Below, one piece after another: positions 287 to 28,345 of a stretch of DNA of 29,208 nt. A program made the position numbers and the translations under genes. Below the pieces are notes generated by a model, which was given only the letters and a program-made list of their open reading frames with translations, searched no databases and had not been told where the DNA came from. Every line of letters starts with the position of its first letter. Positions within the stretch are counted from its first letter, which is position 1. The stretch spans positions 1 through 29,208 of IMG/VR virus record IMGVR_UViG_3300010430_002165; one strand, given 5' to 3'. This stretch comes from a virus.

Positions 287-294
287 TATTTAGT
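287..294 (-). promoter_or_regulatory. Late-promoter-like octamer ACTAAATA
   Basis: The minus strand reads ACTAAATA 8 nt before the ATG at 278. The same octamer, or its TATAAATA, GATAAATA and ATTAAATA forms, precedes seven other genes here at exactly 5 nt. The 8-nt spacing makes this a weaker case. Confidence 0.45.
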
Positions 295-322
295 GGATTT
301 GGTAAATATTACCAGTCGAGGA

Positions 323-350
323 TTGACTTTCCCGATTTTTAGGATACAAT
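323..350 (+). promoter_or_regulatory. Sigma70-type promoter of the CCA-adding enzyme gene
   Basis: TTGACT (323-328), a 16-nt spacer and TACAAT (345-350). The ATG at 356 is only 5 nt after the -10 box, so transcription should start at or beside the start codon and the message would be leaderless. Confidence 0.65.
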
Positions 351-355
351 ATATC

Positions 356-1852
356 ATGATTACGTATAAAAAATTTCTGACCGATAGCGTCAATTACAAC
401 GTCGATGACTTCTCTGAAAAGTGGGAGCAGGCCATATCCTCTTCTGAGGAGTTGCGCGTAGCTCTAGAACTGATGGAGAAGATCGAAGGACTATATCCTG
501 ATGGGGAGATCTTCATCGTTGGGGGAGTTCCCAGAGATCTATTGATGGGGAATGAAGTTGACGATGTTGACATGGCTACGAACATCTCATTTGAAGATCT
601 ATCAAAGCACTTCTCTCTTAAAAACATATCTAAGAGTGACTCTCAACCTGTTTATACTATTCTATATAAGAAGTATGCATACGACTTAGCTAAGTTTAGA
701 GAGGATGCTCAAGATGCAATGGGAAGACAAAGTAATGTTTCTACTGAAGTAGATAGCTTTGAGACTGATACCAAGAGAAGAGATATCTCAATCAATAGCT
801 TTGGTCTTGATTATAAAGGTCGTATTGTAGATTACCAAGGAGGTCTTGACGATCTAAAGAATAAACTCATTCGTGCAGTTGGTAATGCTGGGGAGCGATT
901 CAAGGAAGATGCTACTAGAATACTTCGCGTATTCAGATTTGCAGCTAAGATGGACTTTGAAATTGAAGAGGAAACTCTAAGGTCTGCTACAGAGTTAAAG
1001 GATCTTCTACTTAATCCACAATTGATATCTCAAGAGAGTATCGCTCAAGAGTTTTACAAATCTGCCAAGTCTGGTAGAACCTTATCTAATTTCTTACAAA
1101 AACTTCAAGATGCTGGTATCTTATATGATATCCTTCCAGAGTTCACCAACATGGAACCCCTAACTCATAACCCTAAACATCACCCAGAAGGTGGGTCTAC
1201 GGTTCTTGGTCATATCCATGAGTGTCTTAAGGCTTCTCCATATAATGATCCTATCATTAACCTAGCTGTATTATTCCATGACTTTGGTAAAGCTACTACG
1301 AGAGGGGATAAGAATGGTCACATGACTTACTATGGACATGAGAGTGCTGGCGTTCCTATCGTTGAGAACATCTTCAAGAGATTGAAGTTCAATAATCTTG
1401 GTCCTAATGATAAGAAAAACATCTTAGCAGCTGTGGCTAAACATATGCTAGTGCATAACTTAGATGACTTAAACGTTAAGACTCTAAGGAAGTTGATCCA
1501 TGATCCTTCTTGGGAAACTATTAAGGCTGTATCCTTCTGTGATGAAGCATCAAGAGGTTCAGGAATGTTCAATGCCGAAGAATTCAATGCGAAGATTGAT
1601 AGGGCTGAAGCTAAACTTAATACTGTTCCCGGTGGTGCGCCTGAACTTAAAAAGATGATCTCTCAACTCGTCAATGGTAACAAGTTTCTTGAGTGGTTCC
1701 CAGAGTTCAATGAGGACAGGAAACAGATTGGTCAATACCTTCCGAAGCTACAGGACTATGTTGCAGACCTAATCCTAACGGGTAAGCCTGTAGATGAGAA
1801 TATGGTATACAGGAAGGCTAAACAAATAGTTCCCGGTCAATCTCGTCCGTAG
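356..1852 (+). CDS. cca: CCA-adding enzyme (tRNA nucleotidyltransferase) with HD domain
   Basis: 498 residues from ATG 356. This start is chosen over the longer frame from 293 because the promoter -10 box ends at 350. The class II nucleotidyltransferase head is clear: VGGVPRD at about residues 55-61, metal-binding DxD at D70/D72, RRD at 141-143, and EDATRILR at 184-191. An HD motif (H308-D309, in LFHDFGKA) follows, as in bacterial Cca enzymes that carry a C-terminal HD phosphohydrolase. The family adds or repairs the 3' CCA of tRNAs using CTP and ATP. The role fits the context: 17 of 24 tRNAs in the array at 7-15 kb lack an encoded CCA. The stop is TAG, followed after one codon by TAA, so an amber-suppressing tRNA would add only two residues. 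The 3' end overlaps the convergent gene by 16 nt. Poly(A) polymerase is the alternative within the superfamily; the tRNA array favours CCA addition. Confidence 0.9.
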   Translation: MITYKKFLTDSVNYNVDDFSEKWEQAISSSEELRVALELMEKIEGLYPDGEIFIVGGVPRDLLMGNEVDDVDMATNISFEDLSKHFSLKNISKSDSQPVYTILYKKYAYDLAKFREDAQDAMGRQSNVSTEVDSFETDTKRRDISINSFGLDYKGRIVDYQGGLDDLKNKLIRAVGNAGERFKEDATRILRVFRFAAKMDFEIEEETLRSATELKDLLLNPQLISQESIAQEFYKSAKSGRTLSNFLQKLQDAGILYDILPEFTNMEPLTHNPKHHPEGGSTVLGHIHECLKASPYNDPIINLAVLFHDFGKATTRGDKNGHMTYYGHESAGVPIVENIFKRLKFNNLGPNDKKNILAAVAKHMLVHNLDDLNVKTLRKLIHDPSWETIKAVSFCDEASRGSGMFNAEEFNAKIDRAEAKLNTVPGGAPELKKMISQLVNGNKFLEWFPEFNEDRKQIGQYLPKLQDYVADLILTGKPVDENMVYRKAKQIVPGQSRP

Positions 1853-2127
1853 ATATAAGTCTGTAAGACATCTACGAATTGGTCTGCTATCCAACAGATA
1901 GCAGCAGAGTAGAATGCCAGAGATGTGGCATCTAGAATGGTGAAGTTATGGGAGAATACCCCATACCAGAATCCCACTTGGAATCCTAAACATAGAGAAC
2001 ATTTAAATAGTTCTCTGAAAAACTTCCATTTGGTTAGAGCGTCCCTTAGATAATTGATGATAGTCGCATACTTTAATATGAAACACACACCAATTAACTG
2101 GACACTTAGGAAGTAAAGATTATCCAC
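1837..2127 (-). CDS. Small membrane protein with CxxC-LGF motif
   Basis: 96 residues from a GTG start that overlaps the stop of the upstream gene (GTGGATAA), which implies translational coupling. Two to three hydrophobic segments (about 5-22, 45-60, 66-85) flank a KCSLCLGFQVGFWYG motif. That motif resembles a CxxCxGFW-type signature of small phage and Bacillus membrane proteins of unknown function (DUF1360-like, from memory). It is last in the leftward group that starts at the RlpA-like gene, and converges on cca. Function unknown. Confidence 0.7.
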   Translation of the reverse strand: MDNLYFLSVQLIGVCFILKYATIINYLRDALTKWKFFRELFKCSLCLGFQVGFWYGVFSHNFTILDATSLAFYSAAICWIADQFVDVLQTYIYGRD

Positions 2128-2329
2128 AGATCAGTTTCTTACCGTCAAGAGTTCTAACTCCATCGGAAATTAACTCTGCTTCTTCTTTCTTAACGACGAT
2201 TTTATTACCGTCATCATCAGTGATCTCAACCATACCCTCGCCAACATCGGTGACGGTAGGGCATCCTTTTTTTCCACAGCAAAGGCGAACGGTTTTATCA
2301 CTTTCTCTTATAATTTCTCTAGACATCAT
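2120..2329 (-). CDS. Hypothetical protein, 69 aa
   Basis: Begins MMSREIIRESDK. It contains CCGKKGCPTV (three cysteines) and an acidic stretch EITDDDGNKIVVKKEE that looks like a small beta-rich fold. An ACTAAATA octamer stands exactly 5 nt before the first ATG, so a leaderless late transcript can start here. The second codon is also ATG. It overlaps the next gene by 8 nt. Function unknown. Confidence 0.7.
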   Translation of the reverse strand: MMSREIIRESDKTVRLCCGKKGCPTVTDVGEGMVEITDDDGNKIVVKKEEAELISDGVRTLDGKKLICG

Positions 2330-2334
2330 ATCTA

Positions 2335-2342
2335 TATTTAGT
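2335..2342 (-). promoter_or_regulatory. Late promoter octamer ACTAAATA
   Basis: Minus-strand ACTAAATA followed by exactly 5 nt and ATG (2329). In T4, +1 lies about 6 nt after the octamer, which here is the A of the start codon. Confidence 0.65.
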
Positions 2343-2550
2343 CAGCCTTGTAGGAATTACAACGTTTAAAGTCATTCTTAGAGAATTTACTGTCAGAGTT
2401 TACCCAACACCATTCACATTGTTCCTGAACCCCATGAGTCCCTATATAATACCATCCTTGGTTCGGACAGTCTGGACAATCATCCCCCTGCACCTGTTTA
2501 GGAGGGCAAGGGGGATGGGGAGTTAGTGGTTTTACTTCACCCTTACTCAT
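2338..2550 (-). CDS. Small cysteine-rich protein, putative zinc binder
   Basis: 70 residues. A proline-rich start (PLTPHPPCPPK) is followed by DCPDCPNQGW and CEWCW pairs, a CxxC...CxxC layout resembling one DnaJ-type zinc module. The start codon overlaps the thyX stop (ATGA), so it is probably translated by coupling to thyX. Whether it relates to ThyX activity is unknown. Confidence 0.7.
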   Translation of the reverse strand: MSKGEVKPLTPHPPCPPKQVQGDDCPDCPNQGWYYIGTHGVQEQCEWCWVNSDSKFSKNDFKRCNSYKAD

Positions 2551-3401
2551 TTGTATTTCTTATATTGTTTACAGACATGGTTCGGAATTGTCTGTCTATA
2601 TTGCTTCCATCCTCTGAAATTTCCAGACATTTGGATACCATATTCAGCAGGTATTGCCTGATGTTCGAATGGTGATGCGTGGACTGGTGTAGATGATACT
2701 AACCTGTCGTAGATCATCAAAGCTTTATCAATGGATTCGTCAGCTTTCCTATATGAAACTTGAGCGCACAAGGATGCGGATAACTTAATAGCATTATCTA
2801 ATGTGATATCATTAGATGTAATGACATCTTTATCTGAAGATACAATCTTATAGTCGTCGATATATGGTAGATGCCATTCCCACTCTTCCATTAGTTTAGG
2901 AACACTATCCTGATACAGATGCCACATCTGTAATGCTAGTTGGTGAATTTCTGGTTGTGCATCGGGATGGTTTCTAAGATGGAAGAAGTTGTCCCATTCT
3001 GTAGCAGATGCTACAACTTTAATATGGCTCCAAGGTTCTAAAATTCTATTAGCGATTTGCTTATGAACCTTACACTTACCAAGACCCCATGCAAACATAC
3101 AGGCGACTTTGCCTGATAGGTTCCATAGAATTTTAGTTGCGGATAATGCAAACCCTGTCAACATTTCCTTGGCTTGCATTCCCGATTGGTTCTTACCCCA
3201 CTCGATAGGACACGCTGGATTATTCCAAACGTTCTTAATCATTACCTTTAGGGGAATTGCCCTAGAGGATGCTGCATTCCTTGACAACATTCGATGTGTC
3301 ATAAATTCACTATGAATGAAACGTGGATATTCCAACTCAAACGTTGTCAACCTTTTACCATTATCTGCTACACTATCTGCTACTATTTTTGCGTCTATCA
3401 T
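2547..3401 (-). CDS. thyX: Flavin-dependent thymidylate synthase (ThyX)
   Basis: 284 residues. The signature appears as THRMLSRNAASSRAIP near residue 35 (family form RHRxxSxNxxSxR, first Arg replaced by Thr). The C-terminal part has FEHQAIP and NFRGWKQYRQ, matching the conserved active-site region. ThyX makes dTMP from dUMP with methylene-tetrahydrofolate, FAD and NADPH; with the RNR genes at 18.6 kb it supplies DNA precursors. It is longer than many bacterial ThyX (about 220-250 aa), with an insertion of roughly 40 residues around 65-120, as I recall for phage versions. No Shine-Dalgarno; A/T-rich leader. The stop overlaps the next start. Confidence 0.92.
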   Translation of the reverse strand: MIDAKIVADSVADNGKRLTTFELEYPRFIHSEFMTHRMLSRNAASSRAIPLKVMIKNVWNNPACPIEWGKNQSGMQAKEMLTGFALSATKILWNLSGKVACMFAWGLGKCKVHKQIANRILEPWSHIKVVASATEWDNFFHLRNHPDAQPEIHQLALQMWHLYQDSVPKLMEEWEWHLPYIDDYKIVSSDKDVITSNDITLDNAIKLSASLCAQVSYRKADESIDKALMIYDRLVSSTPVHASPFEHQAIPAEYGIQMSGNFRGWKQYRQTIPNHVCKQYKKYK

Positions 3402-3409
3402 AAAATTTA

Positions 3410-3565
3410 TTATTCTAAAATAGTGATTATAAAATCATCACTATTACATTTAACTAGTTGGCCATCCATGATGTCGAAGAAGAATATATCCCCATTACCA
3501 TTTATAAACCACTCATCGGGAGTTACAAATCTATCTAAATTCTTATCGAATAATTTAAATTTCAT
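3410..3565 (-). CDS. Hypothetical protein, 51 aa
   Basis: Start chosen at ATG 3565 (MKFKLFDKNLDRF), just after the RlpA-like stop, with an AAGGA sequence 11 nt upstream, one of the few Shine-Dalgarno-like sites here. The longer frame from 3613 would overlap the RlpA-like gene. The short acidic, aromatic protein (WFINGNGDIFFFDIMDG) looks like a beta hairpin module. Its last codons contain a 9-bp inverted repeat (AATAGTGAT/ATCACTATT, 3419-3445) followed by TTTT, possibly a weak terminator before thyX. Confidence 0.6.
   Translation of the reverse strand: MKFKLFDKNLDRFVTPDEWFINGNGDIFFFDIMDGQLVKCNSDDFIITILE
3419..3445 (-). other. Inverted repeat at a gene 3' end, possible weak terminator
   Basis: 9-bp arms AATAGTGAT and ATCACTATT with a 9-nt loop. 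On the minus strand the second arm ends in TTTT. It lies inside the last codons of the 51-aa gene, upstream of thyX. The T run is short, so termination would be partial at best. Confidence 0.35.
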
Positions 3566-3566
3566 A

Positions 3567-3956
3567 TTAGTTATCTTCCTTAACAACCATAATTGTAACC
3601 TCAGTAACACCATTAGATTTAAATCCTAATCTCTCTGCAACTCCAACTGTAACGTCAATAATTCGGCCTTTTATATATGGTCCTCGATCTGTAATAGTGA
3701 CAACTTCAGATTTACCATTATTTAAATTAATAACTTTAACCCTCGTTCCCATTGGAAGTTTCTTATGGGCTGCGGTGCTGGCACTATTCACTAGAGGTTT
3801 ACCACTGGCAGTGTGCGTCCCCCCGTTACACTTAATCTCATACCACGACGCTTCCCCGTGTTGGGTGAACTGGACGGGTTGGGGGTCGATTGGTCCAACT
3901 GGATGACATGACGCGAGCGTGATTATCGAGGCGATGGCTAGGATCAGTAACTTCAT
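3567..3956 (-). CDS. RlpA-like lipoprotein (double-psi beta-barrel)
   Basis: 129 residues. MKLLILAIASIITLASC is a lipoprotein signal peptide with lipobox LASC. The double-psi barrel signature follows: GEASWYEI, THTASGKPL, AAHKKLPMGTRVKVINL, TDRGPYIKGRIIDVT. Bacterial RlpA is an outer-membrane septal lytic transglycosylase acting on denuded glycan strands. The expected residues in ASWY, TASG and DRGP are present. The SPOR domain of full-length RlpA is absent, so this is a catalytic-domain-only form. Start chosen at 3956 because a TATAAATA octamer stands exactly 5 nt upstream; the longer frame from 4019 would include the promoter. It is divergent from the lysis cassette and could help in lysis or remodel cell wall during infection. 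Confidence 0.85.
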   Translation of the reverse strand: MKLLILAIASIITLASCHPVGPIDPQPVQFTQHGEASWYEIKCNGGTHTASGKPLVNSASTAAHKKLPMGTRVKVINLNNGKSEVVTITDRGPYIKGRIIDVTVGVAERLGFKSNGVTEVTIMVVKEDN

Positions 3957-3961
3957 GGATT

Positions 3962-3969
3962 TATTTATA
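3962..3969 (-). promoter_or_regulatory. Late promoter octamer TATAAATA (RlpA-like gene)
   Basis: Exact T4 late promoter consensus on the minus strand, 5 nt before ATG 3956, so +1 should be at the start codon. Confidence 0.75.
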
Positions 3970-3995
3970 CTCGATAATCGAAATTTGTCAAGGAT

Positions 3996-4019
3996 ATTTC
4001 CGATCAAATTTCCGATCAA
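3996..4019. repeat. Tandem 12-bp repeat ATTTCCGATCAA x2
   Basis: Two perfect head-to-tail copies (3996-4007, 4008-4019) followed by a decayed third start (ATTGCC). They lie between the divergent RlpA-like and u-spanin promoters. This could be an operator or activator site, or simple slippage. Confidence 0.6.
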
Positions 4020-4045
4020 ATTGCCAGATATATTTAATACATTAG

Positions 4046-4053
4046 ACTAAATA
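4046..4053 (+). promoter_or_regulatory. Late promoter octamer ACTAAATA (lysis cassette)
   Basis: Plus-strand ACTAAATA, then TTAAT (5 nt), then ATG at 4059. Same octamer and spacing as on the minus strand at 2335-2342. Confidence 0.65.
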
Positions 4054-4058
4054 TTAAT

Positions 4059-4742
4059 ATGACAGGGAGATTATATCTATTATCAATGGTATTACCTTGC
4101 CTTTTACTCGTAGCGTGTCCTAAAACTACACCACCAGTAGCAATTCCAGTCCCCCCTCAACAAACTGAGAGTGTGGTTCCGGGAGTTAATGAAATTGGTA
4201 ATGGTATTAATGATACAGTTAAGACTAATTACGAATTAGAAAATACTATTAAGAGTCAAACAACTTCTATCGACGAGCAAAGATCAGATCTTGAGAGGGC
4301 AATGGTATTAGCAGATAAGGTTAAGTCTAAAATGTCGAGTGATTATATAATCATCGATGAATTGATAGACATTCTAGAAGATATTGATGATAGTAATATA
4401 CTATTAAAAGAACAAAACGGAGATCTAAAGGATATACAAATAATCCAATCTGAGATCTTAACTAGAACTAAGACTATGGTTGTGGACGTTTTAGATAAAC
4501 TTTATAAACGCGACAGTGAAATAGATGAGTTAAGAACTCAAAACGATTTTTTGGGGAATAATTTAAAGAGTAAAAACATTGAAAGCGAAGATCTGAAGAA
4601 AAAGTTATCTAAAGAGAAGATTAAGTCTGCAAAATCATCAGTATATAGAAACTGGATTTGGGGATTAGCAGGGGGGTTCGTTCTTTGGACTATTATAAAG
4701 AACCTTATCATGATATATAGTCCTATTAAATTTAGAATATGA
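4059..4742 (+). CDS. Putative unimolecular spanin (lipoprotein with C-terminal TM segment)
   Basis: 227 residues. The N-terminus MTGRLYLLSMVLPCLLLVAC ends in a lipobox (LVAC, Cys20). The middle is a long polar region with heptad-like coiled coil (about 55-195). A single hydrophobic segment NWIWGLAGGFVLWTIIKNL lies near the C-terminus. A lipoprotein end in the outer membrane and a C-terminal anchor in the inner membrane is the u-spanin architecture (phage T1 gp11), which fuses the two membranes at lysis. It is considerably longer than T1 gp11. The next two genes overlap by ATGA junctions and look like holin and endolysin, which supports a lysis role. Alternative: a lipoprotein of other function with a C-terminal anchor. 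Confidence 0.65.
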   Translation: MTGRLYLLSMVLPCLLLVACPKTTPPVAIPVPPQQTESVVPGVNEIGNGINDTVKTNYELENTIKSQTTSIDEQRSDLERAMVLADKVKSKMSSDYIIIDELIDILEDIDDSNILLKEQNGDLKDIQIIQSEILTRTKTMVVDVLDKLYKRDSEIDELRTQNDFLGNNLKSKNIESEDLKKKLSKEKIKSAKSSVYRNWIWGLAGGFVLWTIIKNLIMIYSPIKFRI

Positions 4743-5128
4743 GACGAGGACCATTAGAAAAAGAACACTTCTTAGAAGGTATAAGACAAAAATGGGCAAT
4801 AGTATTCCTACTTTGTGGGGGCTTAGTATTAGGTGTCCATCTATGGGTTGGTAGTTTTGACCCAGCCCCATATATGCAGTTCCTATTAGCTATAGGAGGT
4901 CTATTCATATTGGGAGCTTCTGGAGATTCGTGGGTTAAAGGATATAGTGTTAAATCTATAACAGAAACACAGGCTAGAGAAGAAACTAAAAGAGCGGTTG
5001 TGGATATTAGTGATGATTCCCAACCTGACAACAATATTATAATGGGATTCAATAATCAATATTCCAGAGATCAAAGTTATGCACCTAAAGATTGGATCGC
5101 AGAACAGGAAACCGCACAATTCAGATGA
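4739..5128 (+). CDS. Holin-like membrane protein
   Basis: 129 residues with two hydrophobic segments (about 19-38 WAIVFLLCGGLVLGVHLWVG and 45-62 QFLLAIGGLFILGASGD), a short loop between them, and a polar charged C-terminal tail of about 65 residues. Size, topology and position directly before the endolysin gene fit a two-TM holin. Start overlaps the upstream stop and stop overlaps the downstream start (both ATGA), so the three are probably translated as a unit. I do not recognise a specific holin family. Confidence 0.65.
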   Translation: MRRGPLEKEHFLEGIRQKWAIVFLLCGGLVLGVHLWVGSFDPAPYMQFLLAIGGLFILGASGDSWVKGYSVKSITETQAREETKRAVVDISDDSQPDNNIIMGFNNQYSRDQSYAPKDWIAEQETAQFR

Positions 5129-5907
5129 AAAATAAACTAGCACAGACCATATTAAAAGAAGCTGGACTATACGACTATGCTATAGATGGAAAATTTGGAG
5201 CTAGGAGTGTCTCAGCTTCTAATAAATATTATGACTTTCCATCTAGCTGGAGTGTCTATAAGCTCGTTACAGGTGTTATACAAGTAGCATGTATTAGAAA
5301 TAATATATCTATAGGGGAGATTGATGGACTGTGGGGTAATATGACACAATCAGGATATGAGAAATTATTAAAGTCTAATAATCTAACTACATCAACTCCA
5401 AAGGTCAATCCCAATGTATCAGTCTCTAAGAGATATAACAATTGGCCAAGTCAACGATATAATTCTATGGTGAAATATTATGGAAAAGTTGGAGAAAATC
5501 AAACATCTCTGACCCTACCATATAAAATGAAGCTTGCATGGGATTTGGATGTAACAGTAACTAGACTAACCTGCCATGAGAGGGTTCACGATTCCCTAGA
5601 GAGAATCTTCACAAAGACCCTTGAACATTATGGGGAAAAACTTATATCTAAGCTCCATCTAGATAATTATGGAGGTTGTTTAAACGTTCGTAAAATGAGA
5701 GGTGGTTCTTCTTGGTCTATGCACTCATGGGGTACTGCGGTTGATTTAGATCCAGATAGGAATCGATTAAGATGGAATAGTAGTAAGGCGTTTTTAGCTA
5801 GGAGTGAGTATAAACCTTTTTGGGAGATTGTAGAATCTGAAGGTTGGACAAGTCTAGGTAGAGAACGTAATTTCGATTGGATGCATTTCCAGAGCGCACA
5901 CTTATAA
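5125..5907 (+). CDS. Endolysin, M15-type peptidase with N-terminal peptidoglycan-binding region
   Basis: 260 residues from ATG 5125, which overlaps the upstream stop. Residues about 5-85 contain AIDGKFGARS and EIDGLWGNMTQ, typical of PG_binding_1 repeats. The catalytic part has zinc ligands in the M15 pattern: H190 and D197 in SMHSWGTAVDLDP and H254 in DWMHF. M15 enzymes cut peptide bonds in peptidoglycan cross-links. There is no signal peptide, so release through the holin encoded just upstream is expected. Confidence 0.85.
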   Translation: MKNKLAQTILKEAGLYDYAIDGKFGARSVSASNKYYDFPSSWSVYKLVTGVIQVACIRNNISIGEIDGLWGNMTQSGYEKLLKSNNLTTSTPKVNPNVSVSKRYNNWPSQRYNSMVKYYGKVGENQTSLTLPYKMKLAWDLDVTVTRLTCHERVHDSLERIFTKTLEHYGEKLISKLHLDNYGGCLNVRKMRGGSSWSMHSWGTAVDLDPDRNRLRWNSSKAFLARSEYKPFWEIVESEGWTSLGRERNFDWMHFQSAHL

Positions 5908-5958
5908 TTCACTCAAAAAAGTTCCATTTAACGTTTTTAGAGTTAAATAAAACTACGC

Positions 5959-7081: not shown

Positions 7082-7086
7082 TTAAG

Positions 7087-7157: not shown

Positions 7158-7163
7158 ATTAGG

Positions 7164-8551: not shown

Positions 8552-8579
8552 AGTATATCCGGGTTTTAATTAATGTCAA
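8552..8579 (-). promoter_or_regulatory. Sigma70-type promoter with TTAATTAAAACCC spacer
   Basis: TTGACA, 16-nt spacer, TATACT (8552-8557), then 6 nt to ATG 8545. The TGA in TTGACA is the stop codon of the upstream gene. The spacer matches that of the tRNA promoter at 15078 and the elements at 11940 and 12160. Confidence 0.75.
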
Positions 8580-8884: not shown

Positions 8885-8886
8885 GT

Positions 8887-11659: not shown

Positions 11660-11923
11660 TCAAGAAGAGGCGCGGGGTGACATAATCATTCTATTTGGGC
11701 TAAATTCTCTATACCCAGCTTCTTCACTATCAAATCTAATTTGTTTTCCACAATCTAAACAAACCACATCTAACCAATAACTATCGGCAGTTGGATCGTA
11801 ATTACCTGTATTCGATCCATACTTAGAATTATGGTTTTTATGAACACATTTTTCACGGATTTTTGCGAGTTTTCTGTAAAATTTAGATATCTTTTTTTCG
11901 TATTTTATTATTTCTGGGTTCAT
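11660..11923 (-). CDS. Small zinc-finger-like protein, 87 aa
   Basis: The N-terminal basic helix (MNPEIIKYEKKISKFYRKL) is followed by CVHKNH and CLDC, a possible C-H/C-C zinc site, and ends RMIMSPRASS. Start chosen at ATG 11923. A nearer ATG (11933, 6 nt after the -10 box) opens only a 16-codon frame (MITNEPRN...) in another frame. The promoter and first bases are a near copy of those of the upstream gene. Could be a small regulator; unproven. Confidence 0.65.
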   Translation of the reverse strand: MNPEIIKYEKKISKFYRKLAKIREKCVHKNHNSKYGSNTGNYDPTADSYWLDVVCLDCGKQIRFDSEEAGYREFSPNRMIMSPRASS

Positions 11924-11939
11924 TTGTTATCATGTGGTT

Positions 11940-11965
11940 ACTATATCTGGGTTTTAATTAATTAC
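11940..11965 (-). promoter_or_regulatory. Promoter-like element, TTAATTAAAACCC motif with TATAGT
   Basis: The minus strand carries TTAATTAAAACCCAGA then TATAGT, the same spacer and -10 as at 12160 and 15078, but no good TTGACA at -35. The conserved spacer may itself be read by a phage factor. Confidence 0.5.
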
Positions 11966-12153
11966 ATTTTCCCAACATCCATCAGTTCTAGAATTTCTTC
12001 ATCAGAATATTCACCATTAGCACATTTAAGGAGATGCTCATTTAATGTATCAGAACATTCAAATACCACATCTCCATTATCTATTAATGGTTGAATATGT
12101 TCGGCCCATGCTTTATCGTGGGCTTTTCTAAACTCTGTCTCATTTGTTATCAT
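11962..12153 (-). CDS. Hypothetical protein, 63 aa
   Basis: MITNETEFRKAHDKAWAEHI, acidic and helical, with two cysteines (FECSDTL, LKCANGE) and end EILELMDVGKM. The -10 box lies 6 nt before the ATG, so the message should be leaderless. Unknown function. Confidence 0.65.
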   Translation of the reverse strand: MITNETEFRKAHDKAWAEHIQPLIDNGDVVFECSDTLNEHLLKCANGEYSDEEILELMDVGKM

Positions 12154-12159
12154 GTGAAT

Positions 12160-12187
12160 ACTATATCTGGGTTTTAATTAATCAATT
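12160..12187 (-). promoter_or_regulatory. Promoter-like element duplicating that at 11940
   Basis: Same TTAATTAAAACCCAGA-TATAGT core as 11940, followed by 6 nt and ATG 12153. The -35 is poor (AATTGA at the 16-nt spacing). The similarity extends past the promoter into the first coding bases (ATGATAACAAATGA). Confidence 0.5.
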
Positions 12188-12694: not shown

Positions 12695-12753
12695 TTTTAT
12701 GTGGCTGCTTGCGAGGCACTTTCCCGTATTGCTACGCTAGTTTTTACCATATG

Positions 12754-12825
12754 TGCGCCATGTCGGATTCGAACCGACGACCGAGGATTTAGAATCCTCT
12801 GCTCTAACCACTGAGCTAATGGCGC
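12754..12825 (-). tRNA. tRNA with anticodon CTA (amber suppressor)
   Basis: Perfect acceptor GCGCCAT/ATGGCGC, T8-A9, D stem GCTC/GAGC, anticodon arm GAGGA-TTCTAAA-TCCTC with a fully paired 5-bp stem, giving 34-36 = CTA. T arm GTCGG-TTCGAAT-CCGAC, discriminator A, trailer CAT. CTA pairs with the amber codon UAG. An Arg TCT register would break the anticodon stem. The body, with GCGCC acceptor and TTCTAA loop, resembles tRNA-Arg(TCT), but the amino acid inserted cannot be read from sequence. Every consensus tertiary position is intact, so it should be functional. Confidence 0.88.
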
Positions 12826-13553: not shown

Positions 13554-13566
13554 AATCTTATTTAGT

Positions 13567-14917: not shown

Positions 14918-14989
14918 TAATCCCACGGGGAGTCGAACCCCGATCTGGTGGATGAAAACCACCTGTTCTAACCATTGAACTATGAGATC
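14918..14989 (-). tRNA. tRNA-Glu(TTC)
   Basis: Anticodon arm GGTGG-TTTTCAT-CCACC (TTC), T stem CGGGG/CCCCG, D stem GTTC/GAAC, acceptor GATCTCA/TGGGATT with G-U pairs, discriminator A, trailer CAT. First tRNA after the array promoter. Confidence 0.9.
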
Positions 14990-15077: not shown

Positions 15078-15105
15078 ACTATATCAGGGTTTTAATTAAT
15101 GTCAA
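15078..15105 (-). promoter_or_regulatory. Sigma70-type promoter of the tRNA array
   Basis: TTGACA, a 16-nt spacer containing TTAATTAAAACCC, then TATAGT. It points into tRNA-Glu and the whole leftward array. Same composition as the promoter at 8552, which would re-drive the array from inside. Confidence 0.78.
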
Positions 15106-16278: not shown

Positions 16279-16306
16279 AATTTAGCACACCGATTTGGGT
16301 TGTCAA
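16279..16306 (-). promoter_or_regulatory. Sigma70-type promoter of the vWA gene
   Basis: TTGACA, 16 nt (containing CCAAATCGGTGTGC), TAAATT, then 9 nt to ATG 16269. The TGA inside TTGACA is the stop of the upstream gene. The spacer is nearly identical to that at 16991. Confidence 0.72.
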
Positions 16307-16990: not shown

Positions 16991-17018
16991 ATTTTAGCAC
17001 ACCGATTTGAGATGTCAA
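16991..17018 (-). promoter_or_regulatory. Sigma70-type promoter of the 226-aa gene
   Basis: TTGACA, 16-nt spacer (TCTCAAATCGGTGTGC), TAAAAT, then 7 nt to ATG 16983. The TGA of TTGACA is the stop codon of the upstream 106-aa gene. Confidence 0.78.
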
Positions 17019-18525: not shown

Positions 18526-18533
18526 TATTTAAT
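18526..18533 (-). promoter_or_regulatory. Late promoter octamer ATTAAATA
   Basis: Minus strand ATTAAATA, CTAAT (5 nt), ATG 18520. Same spacing as the other late octamers. Confidence 0.6.
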
Positions 18534-21303: not shown

Positions 21304-21327
21304 CAAATCAAAACCCTAATATACACT
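21300..21327 (+). promoter_or_regulatory. Sigma70-type promoter of the ClpP-like gene
   Basis: TTGACA overlapping the nrdA stop codon (TGA 21301-21303), 16-nt spacer, TACACT, then 15 nt to ATG 21343. Confidence 0.6.
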
Positions 21328-21990: not shown

Positions 21991-23572
21991 ACTTCACAGC
22001 AACCTTCCTCTCATGTATCTGAGGAAGTGCTTGCGTGATGTTCGTGTGATCGTTAATACCCTCATCAGCCGCTATATTTCGAACGTCTTTATTGGATTCT
22101 GTTAATCTAATAGGGATAGAATTGAAATGGTGGCTATGGGGGTAATTTACTATCAAGTTATCTTTAGAAGATGCATACACTGGATAGAACACACCCCCAA
22201 CTTGACATTCACCAATTACAAGTCTCCTGTCTTCATCGGCAGCAAACTTACCATATAGTATAGTATCCTGCGTCTGCTGAACTTCCAGTGGTGCAGTTAT
22301 GTGCTGAACATACAATTCACCTTCCACGGACGCACCACCACCCATAATAGTATTACCTTTAATACCAAGAGAACTTTCTACATATACCTGTCGATTAGAC
22401 CTGAGTGTTATAGTTTTCAATGATTGAATTTCTACAATCGATTCTGACGCTAGTGAAATACCATGAGATGCGTTTATATTGATCTTTTTAAATCCAGCCT
22501 TTAGAGTAGCACCCCCAAGTTCGGTATTACCTGTAGTTTTGAATTGAATTCCACCACTTCCCACAGTTCTAGAGTACGCATTACATACAATCTTACCATC
22601 ATTACCTCCAAGGAAGTTAGATGAATTATCAACTTCCTCTATATGTGGCACGTAATCATGGTTCTTAAATGTTCCAGTTTCGGATACTAACATCTCTAGA
22701 GGTTGACTCCTACCCTTTTCATCTATACGTATGGATGGGAAGTCGTTGAAAGTTCCTCCAATTTGTTCAAATTTATTTCTTTTCGTGATATAGGTTTCAT
22801 CCCCGGTTCCTACTAATTGTTCTATGGGTGTTAGTGTATCTTGTAATTCTAGAATAGCTTTGTTGATCTCTTGGGCTTTATCGTTATCCTCCCATTCACC
22901 ATTTTCAGTTGCAGCATTCTTTTCTGCTCCAAATTCTAATACACCCGGAGCGTTAGATCCAGATTTCCCAGCCCCTTGATCGATATCATCAACGGTTATC
23001 TTACGTTCTTTAGCAGGTTTTGTGTTATTCCTATCTGGAACTGTTACATATGTCGTAACCTCGTCAGATTCCTTTAGTCTAGATGGTATACCTGTGTATC
23101 CATTAAATTTATTCTCGACTGTGAATACATTACTATCTATAACTGGATTCTTTGAACGCTCCCCAGATTTCAATGTTTCAGCCCCATTTGGAAAACCAGC
23201 ACCTCCCCTGTTTACTTTAAATTCACTATTTAAATTTGCAATCGGTCTATAGGTTTCTTTCCATAAAGCCATAGCATCTAATTGACTCTGGGATGAGAAC
23301 CCTTTAAAATTGTAACTATTTCCACCATTTCTTTGAGTTACATCACCCCCAACGAATAATGTTTTATCATTCCCAACAGTTTCAAATGAATCTCGGATAA
23401 CATTCAATTGTTTATTGTTTGTAGCTAACTCACTGTTAACTACATTAGTTAAATTGATATTAGAACCACTTCTATGGGATAGTTTAACCTTCTCCCTCTC
23501 TGTGGTGTTATCAATATCAATCGATCCCCCACGTTGATTGATTACCATTCGGTTTTTATAGATAGATGACAT
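21983..23572 (-). CDS. Baseplate central spike-like protein
   Basis: 529 residues. Following the OB-fold gene by 2 nt, it has a repetitive beta-rich C-terminal half (KKININASHGISLASESIVEIQSLKTI...) of the kind that forms trimeric beta-helical spikes in gp5/gpV proteins. HSHHFNSIPI near residue 485 recalls the HxH iron-binding tip of P2-type spikes. The N-terminal half is polar and low in recognisable motifs (HRSGSNINLTNVVNS). I see no lysozyme domain of the T4 gp5 type. Likely the membrane-piercing spike, made late. Confidence 0.72.
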   Translation of the reverse strand: MSSIYKNRMVINQRGGSIDIDNTTEREKVKLSHRSGSNINLTNVVNSELATNNKQLNVIRDSFETVGNDKTLFVGGDVTQRNGGNSYNFKGFSSQSQLDAMALWKETYRPIANLNSEFKVNRGGAGFPNGAETLKSGERSKNPVIDSNVFTVENKFNGYTGIPSRLKESDEVTTYVTVPDRNNTKPAKERKITVDDIDQGAGKSGSNAPGVLEFGAEKNAATENGEWEDNDKAQEINKAILELQDTLTPIEQLVGTGDETYITKRNKFEQIGGTFNDFPSIRIDEKGRSQPLEMLVSETGTFKNHDYVPHIEEVDNSSNFLGGNDGKIVCNAYSRTVGSGGIQFKTTGNTELGGATLKAGFKKININASHGISLASESIVEIQSLKTITLRSNRQVYVESSLGIKGNTIMGGGASVEGELYVQHITAPLEVQQTQDTILYGKFAADEDRRLVIGECQVGGVFYPVYASSKDNLIVNYPHSHHFNSIPIRLTESNKDVRNIAADEGINDHTNITQALPQIHERKVAVKST

Positions 23573-23574
23573 AA

Positions 23575-24318
23575 TTAATTTTCGTAGTCGTTTGGATATG
23601 TGGAACCGATACCTGATTCATTATCAGTATCATTTAATAAAGTTAAGCTTCTATAATCTTGGGTTACACCGAAGTATACTGGGAATTGTAGATCGCCATC
23701 ATTATGGAATACCCACACCTTAGAACCAACCTCTGGTATGCCAAATAGACCCTTAGCCTTATTTACATGCTTAGATGGTCTATATGAGAATGAATATGGA
23801 TTACATTTAACGGAAAAGTTATCTAAAGGCGACGAGAATGCGTCTCCTATAGCCGTGTCCATGTTTTCGTATAGGAATGCTGGGGAGAACGCTCCTGTCT
23901 GTAGAGTGGGGGGTTCTGTGTCATTTACATCAATACTGCCATAATTGTTATCAGTAATGATCGATACCTTACCATCTTTAAAGTATCTATAGTTACCACT
24001 CTCTCCAACTATAGGATAACAAGGTTCTGCCCAATTGGATAACTTAGCTATCTCCTCAAACATTTCAACATCCTCCCAATCACCTGTAATAAGCTTTTCG
24101 GATTCGGTTTTTGGATTTGAGTTAGTTCCCGGTGATTTTAAATTAAAGTTTTCAAATTTTTCAAACCATTCATCATATGGTTGGTTTGTCAATTCGGGAA
24201 TATAAATCTTAACTCTATTGAGCTTGGCTGGGTCATTATTCTTTACCACAGTTCCTCTATAGAATAAGTTATTAACTCTTTGATCTTCTCCCCCTCTACC
24301 ACTACCTCGTATTGCCAT
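23575..24318 (-). CDS. Baseplate hub OB-fold protein (gp5 N-terminal-like)
   Basis: 247 residues. LFYRGTVVKNNDPAKLNRVK and IYIPEL near the N-terminus, and FGIPEVGSKVWVFHNDGD followed by VYFG near the C-terminus, are the two signatures of the gp5/VgrG OB-fold domain (RVKVxIPE ... PxVGxxVWVxFExGDxxxPVxxG). This domain sits between hub and spike at the baseplate centre. Splitting OB-fold and spike into two genes replaces the single T4 gp5. A terminator precedes it, and TTAAATA lies 7 nt before the ATG. Confidence 0.82.
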   Translation of the reverse strand: MAIRGSGRGGEDQRVNNLFYRGTVVKNNDPAKLNRVKIYIPELTNQPYDEWFEKFENFNLKSPGTNSNPKTESEKLITGDWEDVEMFEEIAKLSNWAEPCYPIVGESGNYRYFKDGKVSIITDNNYGSIDVNDTEPPTLQTGAFSPAFLYENMDTAIGDAFSSPLDNFSVKCNPYSFSYRPSKHVNKAKGLFGIPEVGSKVWVFHNDGDLQFPVYFGVTQDYRSLTLLNDTDNESGIGSTYPNDYEN

Positions 24319-24357
24319 ACATTATTATTTAATTACAAGCTAACTATAGAAAGTCAA

Positions 24358-24385
24358 AAAGCCCAAGAAATTAATCTTGGGCTTT
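24358..24385 (-). terminator. Rho-independent terminator
   Basis: Arms AAAGCCCAAGA and TCTTGGGCTTT with a 6-nt loop; on the minus strand followed by TTGACTTTC. It separates the 122-aa gene from the OB-fold gene. Confidence 0.85.
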
Positions 24386-24406
24386 CATCGATGCAACAGA
24401 TGAGAC

Positions 24407-24775
24407 TTAAATGTATCCGTAGAGATATTTTCTACGTGATTCTGGAGTGTCTACACTTAGAACACCCTTAGTTTGAGATACAGCAGGAACAACGAGAACA
24501 GCAGAACTATGTGTGAAGGTTGTATAACCTCCCCCAGTTTTTGAAAGGGCGAAAACACTTCCATGGTATGCTTTATCTATAACGAATTTAGAACCTTCGA
24601 CATTTAGAGTAGTTGTGGAACCTACTAGGGGTGATACAGCCGTAAAGGTTATACCCTTATCGAAAGTAGATAGAGATGTTGTAGTAACACCACTGGATGC
24701 TGTAACGGTTCCAATTAGATTTGGATCACCTGTTTTTTGAGCGGAAAGTAGGATAGTGTCAAATGAATATAACAT
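24407..24775 (-). CDS. Putative minor virion protein, 122 aa
   Basis: MLYSFDTILLSAQKTGDPNL then GTVTASSGVTTTSLSTFDKG and KSGGGY-like Gly/Thr/Ser-rich beta sequence, ending DTPESRRKYLYGYI. Composition and position next to the capsid gene suggest a structural or decoration protein, but no family is recognised. It has its own GATAAATA octamer 5 nt before the ATG and terminators on both sides, so it is a single-gene late unit, as expected for an abundant product. Confidence 0.6.
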   Translation of the reverse strand: MLYSFDTILLSAQKTGDPNLIGTVTASSGVTTTSLSTFDKGITFTAVSPLVGSTTTLNVEGSKFVIDKAYHGSVFALSKTGGGYTTFTHSSAVLVVPAVSQTKGVLSVDTPESRRKYLYGYI

Positions 24776-24780
24776 ACATC

Positions 24781-24788
24781 TATTTATC
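24781..24788 (-). promoter_or_regulatory. Late promoter octamer GATAAATA
   Basis: Minus strand GATAAATA, 5 nt, ATG 24775. Confidence 0.65.
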
Positions 24789-24815
24789 CAAATTGACTGA
24801 ATTTTTTACAAAAGG

Positions 24816-24848
24816 AAAACCCGCAAGTTCTTCGGACTTGCGGGTTTT
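24816..24848 (-). terminator. Strong Rho-independent terminator after the capsid gene
   Basis: 13-bp arms AAAACCCGCAAGT and ACTTGCGGGTTTT with a 7-nt loop. On the minus strand the stem ends in TTTTCCTTTT. It follows the gp23-type gene. Confidence 0.9.
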
Positions 24849-24888
24849 AGATTTTAGTTCGTAACTTCAGTTACGGTTGTGAGTATCT

Positions 24889-26349
24889 TTACAGATAAAC
24901 AGAAACCGATCCCGGAGTAAACGCAACACCAAGTCCCGTAACAATGACTAGATGGTAATAAAGATTAGCACCGAATATGTTGTTAACAATACCGTAACGG
25001 GTCATAAGACCAACGCGAGGCGTGAAGTTAACAGGATCAATAGCGCGTTGCACCATGATCGGAATATACGGACAATAGATAATACCAGTATCATAATATT
25101 CAGAACCTTTGTAACCCATCAGCGCATACTCAATAGGCGCAGTTCTCACTGGCGTATATTGGTTATTCGTGTAGTTAGTAGAATTCTGAACTTCAGTTCT
25201 TGTATCACGATAAACAGTGAAACGCGCTCCAACAGTTCCTACTTTTGCGATACCAACACCAGCAGTCGAGACTGTGCCATTGATTTCGTAAACTTTAAAG
25301 TCTGGTAGCATTTCCAAAATTGAGCATACTCTAGGAGTAGCAATAATGAAGTTTGCAGCACCACGACGGTTACGAGCAGCCATACGGCCAGCTTCGATAA
25401 TAAGTTTTTGGTAGAATGTTAAATTACGTTCAGCAGTCCAACGACCATCTGCACTTACAGGACTCCAGAAGGAGTAACCTGCCCCATAACCAGCGTTAAA
25501 CGCTGATTGTAGCATACGCATAACAACCTCACGGTCAATTTCGGCTTGGATTTCGTAAGACATCGCATTCGTAAGCTCACCATCGATGTCGATGCCTTGC
25601 ATGTTTTTGATATCTTGTTCCAATTCGATAGACCAACGAGTAGCAAGACGACGAGTTCCAGCTTCGACAGAAGTTTTTTCAAACTTCATTTCGATCTGAG
25701 GAATACGTCCAGTGTTTTCGTAACTCTCAAGGAGTTGCGCTACACCACGATCTTGATCTGCGAATTCCCATACGCCAGCCAAACCACTAAGGTTTGAAGC
25801 AGAAGTACCAGAATGACGAGTATCAAGTAATTGATACCCAAGTTCATTGCTGTCAGGAAGTCCAGTGTTACCATCATACGTGCCAGCACCCGCTCCACCA
25901 TTAAGGTTTCCGGTTCCGACAGCTAGACCATCTACATGGTCTGTATCATTAAGGAAGTCAGATTGATAAGCATAACGCAAAGCGAATGCAAGACCAACTG
26001 GACCACCCATAGGTTGAACACCACAGATCTCGTTAGAGATTAGTTCAGGGAAAGTACGACGAATCATAGGAATGAGGATCTTTGGAAGACGGGAATCACC
26101 GGGAGCATAATTGTCGCCATTTCCACCGGGACTATTAGCCACGGAGGTTGCGCCAAAGATACCAGACGATGAGTTACCTGCCTCTTCGAGACACCATTTC
26201 TCTTGATTTTCCATTAGGATAGCAGTTGTGCGATAAACGTGTTCATTTTGGATTTCACCAACATCTTTCGATGTGTAGTCCAGAATGCCCTTCCATTTAT
26301 CAACGACAGCGTTGACATCTTTTGGATCAATATTTTGAGGAATTTTCAT
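24889..26349 (-). CDS. Major capsid protein (T4 gp23 type)
   Basis: 486 residues. The C-terminal signature GIIYCPYIPIMVQRAIDPVN followed by FTPRVGLMTRYG is that of gp23-family capsid proteins (HK97 fold). The N-terminal 56 residues are probably removed by the prohead protease: WCLEE then AGNSS fits the (L/I)xE cleavage rule, with the cut after E56. It forms the hexamers of the head; no separate vertex protein (gp24) is seen in the window. The leader has GAATAAATTATAG but longer spacing than other late genes. It is the downstream end of the head gene block. Confidence 0.92.
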   Translation of the reverse strand: MKIPQNIDPKDVNAVVDKWKGILDYTSKDVGEIQNEHVYRTTAILMENQEKWCLEEAGNSSSGIFGATSVANSPGGNGDNYAPGDSRLPKILIPMIRRTFPELISNEICGVQPMGGPVGLAFALRYAYQSDFLNDTDHVDGLAVGTGNLNGGAGAGTYDGNTGLPDSNELGYQLLDTRHSGTSASNLSGLAGVWEFADQDRGVAQLLESYENTGRIPQIEMKFEKTSVEAGTRRLATRWSIELEQDIKNMQGIDIDGELTNAMSYEIQAEIDREVVMRMLQSAFNAGYGAGYSFWSPVSADGRWTAERNLTFYQKLIIEAGRMAARNRRGAANFIIATPRVCSILEMLPDFKVYEINGTVSTAGVGIAKVGTVGARFTVYRDTRTEVQNSTNYTNNQYTPVRTAPIEYALMGYKGSEYYDTGIIYCPYIPIMVQRAIDPVNFTPRVGLMTRYGIVNNIFGANLYYHLVIVTGLGVAFTPGSVSVYL

Positions 26350-26415
26350 ATAATATGTTTTCTTTCTATAATTTATTCAAGCCATTAAGAGGCTTCATGG
26401 TTCTTGGTGAAATCT

Positions 26416-27300
26416 TCAGTGCATCCCCTTGCCTTTAGAAAGGACATCTAGGTATTCACTTTGAAGTTCGTTAGAGTTGGTATTATTTACCTTTTCTTCC
26501 ACAACTTTTTGTGTTGGGATGAAATCTGGCTTAATTGTTCTTGTTTTAATTGCATCTTCCTTAAGAGTTTGCAGTTTTGATGTCTCCTGTTTGTCGAATA
26601 GACGAGCAGTGTAATCGTAATTTTCTTGGATGAATTTCAAGGTCTTATCTCCAAGTGCTTTACGAAGGAAATTCTTCTTAGCTTCTGGGAGTTTAGAGGT
26701 CTTACCTTCTAGGAGGCTGACAACTTGAGTTTTTTGATTAGATTCGTATAGAGCAGTGAATTGAGTCTTCAATTCTTTATTCTCTTTCTGTAGAGCTGTG
26801 AGTTGGGATTTACCATCTTTAACAGCTTCCTTAATTTCAGGATTCATCATCGCAACATCCACACCTAATACATTCTTAAGATTAGCTAGAACATCAAATG
26901 CAGTTCTATTCTTAACTGCTGTGTCTAGATCTTTCATATCGATAGATTCCGAAAGGAACTCTTCGAGGTATGCACTGATGGATTCAATTAGAACCTTTTT
27001 AAATTTGTTGGCATCTTTAACATTAGCCCTTTCATAAAGCTTAACAATGTTTACCATTTTAGAAGCGTTGTTCTTATCGACTGCTTCAACAACTTTCATC
27101 ATTTTCTTAGATCTATCTTGATCTAGAGTTGATACGAGAGTCTTAAGTTTCCCAGCGTAAATGTCATCCTGTTCGATGAGTGCGGATTCAACGCTTAGTT
27201 CTACTTTAGTATCGAATGCTTCCTGAATAGCGGTTAACGTTTCGGGGGTTATGACTTTTTGAACCTCTTCCGAGAATAGTTTTTTTAAATTTGACTTCAT
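26416..27300 (-). CDS. Prohead scaffold protein (gp22-like)
   Basis: 294 residues from ATG 27300 (MKSNLKKLFSEEVQKVITPE), 4 nt after the upstream stop; a longer frame from 27336 overlaps that gene. Almost wholly helical and charged (KMMKVVEAVDKNN, KSQLTALQKENKELK), with an acidic C-terminal region. Position between the gp67/68-like gene and the capsid gene is that of gp22. Such scaffolds fill the prohead and are later degraded by the gp21 protease. Confidence 0.82.
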   Translation of the reverse strand: MKSNLKKLFSEEVQKVITPETLTAIQEAFDTKVELSVESALIEQDDIYAGKLKTLVSTLDQDRSKKMMKVVEAVDKNNASKMVNIVKLYERANVKDANKFKKVLIESISAYLEEFLSESIDMKDLDTAVKNRTAFDVLANLKNVLGVDVAMMNPEIKEAVKDGKSQLTALQKENKELKTQFTALYESNQKTQVVSLLEGKTSKLPEAKKNFLRKALGDKTLKFIQENYDYTARLFDKQETSKLQTLKEDAIKTRTIKPDFIPTQKVVEEKVNNTNSNELQSEYLDVLSKGKGMH

Positions 27301-27304
27301 ATGA

Positions 27305-27655
27305 TTAGAATAATGTTTTCGTGAGTTCCTTTTCAATCTTAGATTGAAGTTTAGATTCTACCGCTTGCTTAATATATTTATCAGCTTCGCTATAGTTTTT
27401 TGCTAAAATGCTATCAATAAATTTTGCAATGTCTGTTGACTCTTTAAAAGTATTTCCATTCTTAGAAGTAAAGTCTTCTGAATCTTCTTCTTCAGAGACT
27501 TTCTTATCTCTTTTCTTAGGGTCTGTGCCTTTACCACTTCCCTTACTTTTAAAGGGTTTAGTTTTTGGCGCAAAGTTTTTGCGTTGTTTAACTTTAGATT
27601 CCGGTAGAGATGCTTTACCATCCTCCTTCACCTGTTTATATACTGATTTACCCAT
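27305..27655 (-). CDS. Prohead core protein (gp67/gp68-like)
   Basis: 116 residues. A very basic, low-complexity first half (KSKGSGKGTDPKKRDKK) is followed by EEEDSED and a helical end IAKFIDSILAKNYSEADKYI that continues with AVESKLQSKI. Small prohead core proteins of T4-like phages have this helical end as I recall. Own GATAAATA octamer 5 nt before the ATG. Probably an internal core component processed during maturation. Confidence 0.7.
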   Translation of the reverse strand: MGKSVYKQVKEDGKASLPESKVKQRKNFAPKTKPFKSKGSGKGTDPKKRDKKVSEEEDSEDFTSKNGNTFKESTDIAKFIDSILAKNYSEADKYIKQAVESKLQSKIEKELTKTLF

Positions 27656-27660
27656 ATTAC

Positions 27661-27668
27661 TATTTATC
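27661..27668 (-). promoter_or_regulatory. Late promoter octamer GATAAATA
   Basis: Minus strand GATAAATA, 5 nt, ATG 27655. It overlaps the stop region of the protease gene. Confidence 0.65.
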
Positions 27669-28332
27669 CTAAAGCGTTTATAAATTTAATAACCTGCTCA
27701 CGAAGGAATCCATCCATGTCTTTTCCGGGTAGTTTTGATATAGTTTTTTCGAAATTGTCGTAATGTTCTTCAAATCGACCCTCTTGATCAACTACATAAC
27801 TCTTACTTTCAAGAATACCATTAACAAAAGCTTTTGGATAGGATGGATCTGCAACCGCATCAATCGCAACCAGATACATATTCTCTACCAAATTATAATC
27901 AGATGATTCTTTTAAAGAACCTAATGCTCGGGTTGACATACCGATCTTAACACCATCATTAATTAAGGAACGTAGAATTTGACCACATGGGCCAGATAGG
28001 ACTTTAGCCTTACCGTGGAACCCATCACCCTCTTCATATAGTTCAGTGACTAGGTGACACGCTCTTTCTAGATTAACATCTGCGGAGGCTGGGTGATTAA
28101 GTTCGCCCATAGCCCTTCCCGGTGTTACCATTTCATTCATATATCTTGCAACATCCTTACGGGTATCATCAAGACCATATAATCTTTTATTCTTATTAAC
28201 TTGGTTACATCCAATGAATGGACCTTTAACATATAGGGATGATTGACCCTTCAAATTAGACTGTTCTTCTAGGATTTCGAAGTTGTCAAATACTTCGGGA
28301 TTCTCAGCCATTAGCTTCAATTGGAGTGCCAT
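27664..28332 (-). CDS. Prohead core protease (T4 gp21 type)
   Basis: 222 residues. The catalytic residues of this serine protease family can be placed at H80 (GELNHPAS) and S133 (GMSTRALGS). It cleaves capsid, scaffold and core proteins after (L/I)xE during head maturation. A perfect TATAAATA stands 5 nt before the ATG. The order gp21, core protein, gp22, gp23 is as in T4-type phages. Confidence 0.92.
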   Translation of the reverse strand: MALQLKLMAENPEVFDNFEILEEQSNLKGQSSLYVKGPFIGCNQVNKNKRLYGLDDTRKDVARYMNEMVTPGRAMGELNHPASADVNLERACHLVTELYEEGDGFHGKAKVLSGPCGQILRSLINDGVKIGMSTRALGSLKESSDYNLVENMYLVAIDAVADPSYPKAFVNGILESKSYVVDQEGRFEEHYDNFEKTISKLPGKDMDGFLREQVIKFINALG

Positions 28333-28337
28333 GTATA

Positions 28338-28345
28338 TATTTATA
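28338..28345 (-). promoter_or_regulatory. Late promoter octamer TATAAATA (protease gene)
   Basis: Exact T4 late consensus on the minus strand followed by TATAC and ATG 28332, placing +1 at the start codon. Confidence 0.78.

Follow-up and report, generated by a model that had tools for sequence, protein, structure and literature searches.

The window analysed here is a 29-kb virus record (IMG/VR record IMGVR_UViG_3300010430_002165, 29,208 nucleotides (nt), 37.9% GC) from a T4-like phage, and the elements in question are promoter motifs that stand directly in front of its start codons. PHROGs matches in the window comprised a gp23-type capsid protein, a gp21-type protease (phrog_138 and phrog_207 cover gp23 and the gp21 protease) and a head-closure protein. 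The joint presence of the T4-type gp23 capsid protein and the gp21 protease marks the window as T4-like. Its gp23 found its best matches among isolates in cyanophages, with about 30-33% identity. The window also carries 23 tRNA genes. A search with gp23 led to 80 related loci; 16 related contigs were used for motif counts and four relatives of ~200 kb (G001-G004) for genome-wide distance counts.

An earlier note on this DNA had described seven T4-type late octamers, each exactly 5 nt from an ATG. All seven are present. On the minus strand, TATAAATA at 28338..28345 precedes ATG 28332 of the gp21-type head maturation protease (27664-28332), and GATAAATA at 27661..27668 precedes ATG 27655, with the TAA of the octamer doubling as the gp21 stop codon. 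Further octamers on this strand are GATAAATA at 24781..24788 (ATG 24775), ATTAAATA at 18526..18533 (ATG 18520) and ACTAAATA at 2335..2342 (ATG 2329). TATAAATA at 3962..3969 (-, ATG 3956) and ACTAAATA at 4046..4053 (+, ATG 4059) form a divergent pair. An eighth octamer had been overlooked, namely ACTAAATA at 13559..13566 (-), which lies 5 nt before ATG 13553 of a 79-codon gene just downstream of tRNA-Tyr. One more TAAATA at 24326..24331 (-) is near-leaderless with 7 nt to ATG 24318. In total, TAAATA-N5-ATG occurs at 10 sites in the window, and 8 of them head frames of at least 69 codons. The other two, at 280 (+, 20 codons) and 7268 (-, 23 codons), are spurious. Dinucleotide shuffles of the window (n = 500) gave a mean of 0.89 and a maximum of 4 such sites. 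TAAATA itself was not over-represented (41 seen versus 42.4 expected); thus, the late signal lies in the position of the motif.

The same arrangement was found throughout the relatives. TAAATANNNNNATG (TAAATA-N5-ATG) was counted 483 times in the 16 related contigs compared to 30 times for the reversed control, and all 16 contigs were enriched. For frames of at least 40 codons, the distance between TAAATA and ATG was 5 nt in 42, 43, 51 and 45 genes of G001 to G004, respectively, and 4 nt in 0, 1, 0 and 0 genes. At 6 nt, 10, 17, 14 and 7 genes were counted, and the tail fell beyond. The octamer-to-ATG distance in these larger genomes therefore forms a sharp peak and not the broad spread that would have spoken against the earlier note. 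In isolate phages, the distance peaked at about 23-30 nt (T4), 20-27 nt (Syn9) and 25-38 nt (KVP40), as expected for leaders that carry a Shine-Dalgarno (SD) sequence. Among 16 isolate phages checked, a clear partial TAAATA-N5-ATG signal was limited to the SAR11 phages HTVC008M (14 versus 4 in the control) and Mosig (11 versus 3). T4 reached 10 versus 5 and CP220 6 versus 2, and the remaining twelve were close to control. The minority of TAAATA-N5-ATG genes in HTVC008M (L149-L156) and Mosig (W13), together with strong SD sequences elsewhere in HTVC008M, possibly represents an intermediate state.

Orthologues of the genes in the window keep the spacing to different degrees. In the main comparison, distances were measured from the leftmost TAAATA, which makes its numbers at 5 nt minimum values. 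TAAATA-N5-ATG precedes the orthologues of gene 24775 in 66/66 loci, at protein identities of 34-100%. For gp21, 44 of 59 orthologues had TAAATA at 5 nt and 9 more at 6-7 nt; a second set comprised 41 loci in which an ATG was present, with the motif at 5 nt in 23 and at 6-8 nt in 8, and the N-terminal peptide was conserved from the ATG onward. Three gp21 outgroup genes with an ATG (36-38% identity) showed AAGGAG before it instead. The orthologues of 27655 had the motif at 5 nt in 21/49 loci, and in many of these loci the nearest start picked fell within the gene. Values for 24318 were 13/52 at 5 nt and 31 at 6-7 nt, for 23572 6/49 and 16, respectively, and for the head-closure gene 8/45 at 5 nt.

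The late motif of the clade reads [AG][CT]TAAATA without a conserved -35 element; only weak A/T tracts accompany the late sites of the relatives. In G001-G004, these tracts lie at about -17, -28 and -38, approximately one helical turn apart, and perhaps reflect bending or contact with the alpha-CTD. Bacterial RNA polymerase prefers a pyrimidine preceding a purine start. At late sites, the base at -1 was a pyrimidine in 158/180 cases with 5 nt spacing and in 23/48 cases with 6 nt spacing, compared to 62% of other starts. According to a description of T4 late promoters (PMC1524935), the octamer occupies -13 to -6, and +1 would consequently fall on the A of AUG in this clade. The corresponding claim of the earlier note is thus supported by the T4 position and, independently, by the -1 base. 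A homologue of the late sigma factor gp55 was found in all four large relatives.

A second promoter class emerged when starts preceded by a -10-like hexamer at 6 nt were aligned, which revealed a strong box at about -27 to -17. This box varies by lineage: AAACCGA in G001, AAACACT in G002 and G003, AAACTA(G) in G004 and AAACCC in the window. It stands at one fixed distance from the ATG in 40, 31, 38 and 75 genes of G001 to G004, with the neighbouring shorter distances nearly empty, so that the sharp spacing holds for this class as well. The TATAAT-like -10 ends 6 nt before the ATG and the -1 base was a pyrimidine in 184/184 sites. That purines are missing at -1 is consistent with selection against transcription starting one base too soon and thereby leaving an extra leader nucleotide. 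The element was also found before tRNA genes, often with TTGACA, both in G001 and in the window (15078..15105, -, upstream of the tRNA array with the first tRNA-Glu at 14989). It therefore acts on transcription and not on translation. At one of these sites in G001 (L105 8693-8714, +), the spacing of 6 nt between the end of the -10 and an ATG recurs with the first base of tRNA-Asp (8714) in place of the ATG, as if the tRNA transcript were leaderless.

In the window, TTGACATTAATTAAAACCCGGATATACT at 8552..8579 (-) precedes the zinc-ribbon gene with its -10 TATACT ending 6 nt before ATG 8545, and TTAATTAAAACCCAGATATAGT at 12160..12181 (-) has a -10 TATAGT that ends 6 nt before ATG 12153. A second TTAATTAAAACCCAGATATAGT at 11940..11961 (-) is followed 6 nt downstream by ATG 11933; the listed gene start is 11923. 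The promoter together with ATGATAACAAATGA is repeated at 11923-11961 and 12144-12181 (-) before two neighbouring genes, perhaps by recent duplication, and in the copy at 11955 the ATG at +1 differs from the listed gene start. AAAACCCTAATATACA at 21310..21325 (+) carries the box upstream of gene 21343, but the gene begins 17 nt after the -10 and is leadered. The earlier note had reported sigma70-like -10 boxes 5-9 nt before five ATGs. All five boxes are present, but those of 8545 and 12153 belong to the distinct phage-type box promoter and are not plain sigma70 elements.

The two classes differ in the genes they serve. In the late class, the ten longest proteins of G001 had PHROGs matches to a tail sheath protein, a nicotinamide phosphoribosyltransferase and two endonucleases, and six had no match. 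The ten longest of G004 comprised a virion structural protein, a head-tail adaptor, a tRNA nucleotidyltransferase and one family of unknown function, again with six lacking a match. In the second class, the ten longest proteins of G001 comprise, among others, helicase-like proteins, RNA ligases, a phosphoribosyl pyrophosphate (PRPP) synthetase, a DNA methyltransferase and a DNA ligase; in G004, Pfam recognised one of eight second-class proteins, as a KaiC-type ATPase. The split is mostly, though not purely, one of structural versus metabolic genes. Reciprocal best pairs between genomes, taken from proteins already assigned to a class, comprised 128 late-late, 44 second-second and no mixed pairs. 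The class was thus kept in 172/172 pairs, including ones whose boxes differ by lineage.

SD sequences are nearly absent from the clade, as the earlier note had stated. For unambiguous starts of open reading frames (ORFs) of at least 80 amino acids, the late class of G001 to G004 had 2, 0, 2 and 0 SD sequences compared to 2, 2, 3 and 4 in the control. The remaining starts were at about control level (16/18, 16/17, 22/20 and 25/36), and an SD-like sequence preceded 3 of 66 starts of the -10 class. In comparison, SD sequences and control amounted to 98/13 in T4, 45/12 in Syn9, 124/10 in KVP40 and 76/21 in HTVC008M (125 genes). Genes without a motif thus show no SD signal either, and the leaderless genes form part of a wider programme that does without SD sequences. 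As a rule, starts of the clade that lack an SD sequence are rich in A near positions -3 and -6.

Taken from these sequence patterns, the middle-type and late mRNAs of this uncultivated T4-like clade are very probably genuinely leaderless, with the promoter fused with the start codon. For late genes, host RNA polymerase with a gp55-type sigma factor would recognise [AG][CT]TAAATA at -13 to -6. For the second, middle- or early-type class, it would use the lineage-specific box (about -27 to -17) together with the TATAAT-like -10 (-12 to -7), and +1 would likewise be the A of AUG; the box may be bound by a phage activator or sigma factor, or by a host sigma factor with a phage factor. Both classes would yield 5'-AUG messages devoid of leader and SD sequence, on which the ribosome might initiate at the 5'-terminal AUG by a 70S-type or other SD-independent route. 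A translation mode of host or phage that favours leaderless mRNA, as the earlier note had suggested, is plausible. RegB, which would suit an attack on SD sites, was not found in G001-G010 by a search that worked in T4, and a phage-encoded bS21 was not found there by a search that worked in HTVC008M. The broader proposal is a clade-wide loss of SD initiation, with the late promoter and an undescribed, fast-evolving middle promoter locked in the register of the start codon. This could sustain phage translation during a shutdown of SD-dependent initiation in the host, or fit a host whose ribosomes make no use of SD sequences; we regard it as a tentative idea that is rather doubtful at present.

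Several observations weigh against leaderless messages as the rule in this clade. The position of +1 is a prediction from T4 homology and the -1 base. Late sites at 6-8 nt amount to 89 (48, 21 and 20), from which it follows that leaders of 1-3 nt are tolerated. About two thirds of the unambiguous starts (539/798) belong to neither class at the tested spacings and show SD sequences no more often than the control; internal genes must therefore be initiated without SD in any case. The gp23 gene (ATG 26349) is leadered, with no TAAATA in the 40 nt before the start in 75/76 orthologues. As to the machinery, the gp45 clamp and the gp33 co-activator had no match in the relatives with T4, KVP40, Syn9 and HTVC008M profiles, and homologues of MotA and AsiA were not found in the relatives either (motA was detected in T4 alone, and asiA in T4 and KVP40 alone). 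The description of leaderless messages as systematic in the earlier note therefore stands for genes with a promoter of their own and not for most others, which have neither motif nor SD sequence, nor for gp23. Genes of the late and second class were not clearly commoner as operon heads than others. A search for gp45 by Pfam PF02916 was uninformative, as it missed its own positive control. With gp55 detectable and T4-type gp45 and gp33 not, the clamp link of late transcription in G001-G004 may be replaced or strongly diverged.

The strongest competitor, still an unlikely one, is simple genome compaction, in which promoters abut genes, the exact 5'-AUG is unselected and short leaders serve equally well. 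The tail of late sites at 6-8 nt and the partial signal in HTVC008M and Mosig, two SAR11 phages with small genomes, would suit it, but the peak at exactly 5 nt is almost four times that at 6 nt, and neither the invariable pyrimidine at -1 of the second class nor the unbroken 5 nt spacing in the orthologues of 24775 would be expected from packing alone. Moreover, KVP40, Syn9 and T4 retain leaders. We give still less weight to the idea that the A/T-rich motifs are Kozak-like translation-initiation elements of a non-SD host and that the mRNAs begin further upstream. Two unrelated elements hold separate promoter geometries and divide by gene function, the late one is a known T4 promoter that lies 20-40 nt upstream in T4, Syn9 and KVP40, and the second one precedes tRNA genes. 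TAAATA is also not general to all starts, whereas the A-rich surroundings of the non-SD starts and the absence of SD sequences are what such elements would lead one to expect.

That TAAATA-N5-ATG is a stop-reinitiation module for translational coupling, with TAA as the upstream stop codon, is the least credible of the alternatives. It does apply to part of the sites, for example gp21/27655 of the window, and the second-class genes are often tightly packed (73/90 within 40 nt of the end of an upstream ORF on the same strand). However, the TAA of the motif is an upstream stop in only 27/181 sites, 54/181 sites have no ORF end on the same strand within 200 nt, and two sites of the window, 3956 (-) and 4059 (+), form a divergent pair.

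Leaderless messages with start-codon-fused promoters have parts in common with several known systems. T4 late promoters (gp55/gp33/gp45) share the TAAATA core, the lack of a -35 element, the use of both strands, the position before structural genes and the gp55 homologue. They differ in that ATG stands at +1 in the clade while T4 has a leader with an SD sequence, that gp45 and gp33 are not recognised in the clade by T4-type profiles, and that -13/-12 is [AG][CT] instead of TA, which is closest to the a/gC octamer variant reported for phage Aeh1 in PMC2988020. The second class resembles T4 middle promoters (MotA/AsiA) in its phage-specific box with a TATAAT-like -10 before metabolism genes. It differs in the position of the box (about -27 to -17, where the T4 MotA box lies around -30), in the sequence of the box, which varies by lineage (AAACCGA, AAACACT, AAACTA or AAACCC), and in lacking a detected MotA or AsiA homologue. 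The Pelagibacter phages HTVC008M and Mosig share some TAAATA-N5-ATG genes; HTVC008M differs in its otherwise strong SD use (76/125 versus 21 in the control). In Deinococcus-Thermus and Actinobacteria, a survey describes leaderless genes as marked by a -10-like signal that lies about 10 bp before the start codon (PMC3160421). The clade shares the -10 signal adjoining the ORF start, but is a T4-like phage group with two phage-type promoter classes, and its non-leaderless genes have no SD sequence either.

T4-type late promoters and leaderless genes are thus each already known. Bacterial leaderless genes have been surveyed, and those of phages are mentioned in passing in a paper on phage AR9. The new part appears to be the clade-wide fusion of both, together with a lineage-specific promoter in the same register; a full-text literature search (by titles and abstract openings, with subscription literature thinly covered) found no report of systematic leaderless late genes in T4-like phages. 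There seem to be roughly 70-120 apparent leaderless genes per genome of ~200 kb in two regulatory classes, with SD sequences not above background. If true, this would be an unusual strategy of viral gene expression on a genome-wide scale. The clade would be a natural test set for initiation on 5'-AUG mRNA, for the separation of phage and host translation and for the co-evolution of promoter and start codon. For uncultivated T4-like phages, the rule yields predictions for many start codons and promoters, and the lineage-specific box implies, as a prediction, a new phage transcription factor.

A smaller third group of promoters is of the TTGACA type with TAAA[AT]T, mostly 5-9 nt from ATGs. In the window, it includes TTGACA-N16-TAAATT at 16279..16306 (-), 9 nt before ATG 16269 of the vWA-type gene, and TTGACA-N16-TAAAAT at 16991..17018 (-), 7 nt before ATG 16983 of the 226-aa gene. 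Their predicted leaders are about 0-3 nt. The earlier note had placed +1 on the start codon for the -10-box genes in general, and these two are off the exact A. A further sigma70-like promoter, TTGACT-N16-TACAAT at 323..350 (+), lies 5 nt before ATG 356 of cca. In the relatives, TTGAC-N17..19-TA[ATC]A[AT]T exceeded the reversed control with 18/3 (G001), 22/7 (G002), 13/1 (G003) and 12/2 (G004). The Bacteroidota-type promoter TANNTTTG was not enriched at starts, nor when paired with a -33 element. Since the TTGAC type exceeds its control and TANNTTTG does not, a Bacteroidota host is not supported by the promoters; those of host type look sigma70-like and not Bacteroidota-like.

A gp23 search of genomes for the host gave only two contigs of gut metagenome-assembled genomes (MAGs), L169 (Lachnospiraceae) and L170 (Paludibacteraceae), with 48-50% identity. 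Taken as whole genomes, the two MAGs were only slightly above control (120 versus 89 and 137 versus 84, respectively). The 21-kb loci around the gp23 matches had no SD excess (1/25 versus 5 and 0/14 versus 3). By eye, TAAATA lies about 9-15 nt before some starts of these loci, which suggests short leaders and not none.

The leader of gp23 in the window (26350-26415) contains a conserved hairpin at 26375..26398 (-) of the form TGA[GA]G..C[CT]TGA. Three of its 6 pairs had changes on both sides among 36 distinct sequences. The hairpin is followed by a ATAGAAAG-like sequence, and the two together may serve in processing or translation of the message for the major capsid protein. Extended pairing of the leader with the 16S tail (AGAAAG) was considered and set aside, as only a weak, unproven AGAAAG cluster was seen about 10-12 nt from other starts. 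Finally, ARAGORN predicted a tRNA with the anticodon CTA (labelled Pyl) at 12753-12825 (-) of the window and at 3941-4013 (+) of L105, which is possibly an amber suppressor tRNA.

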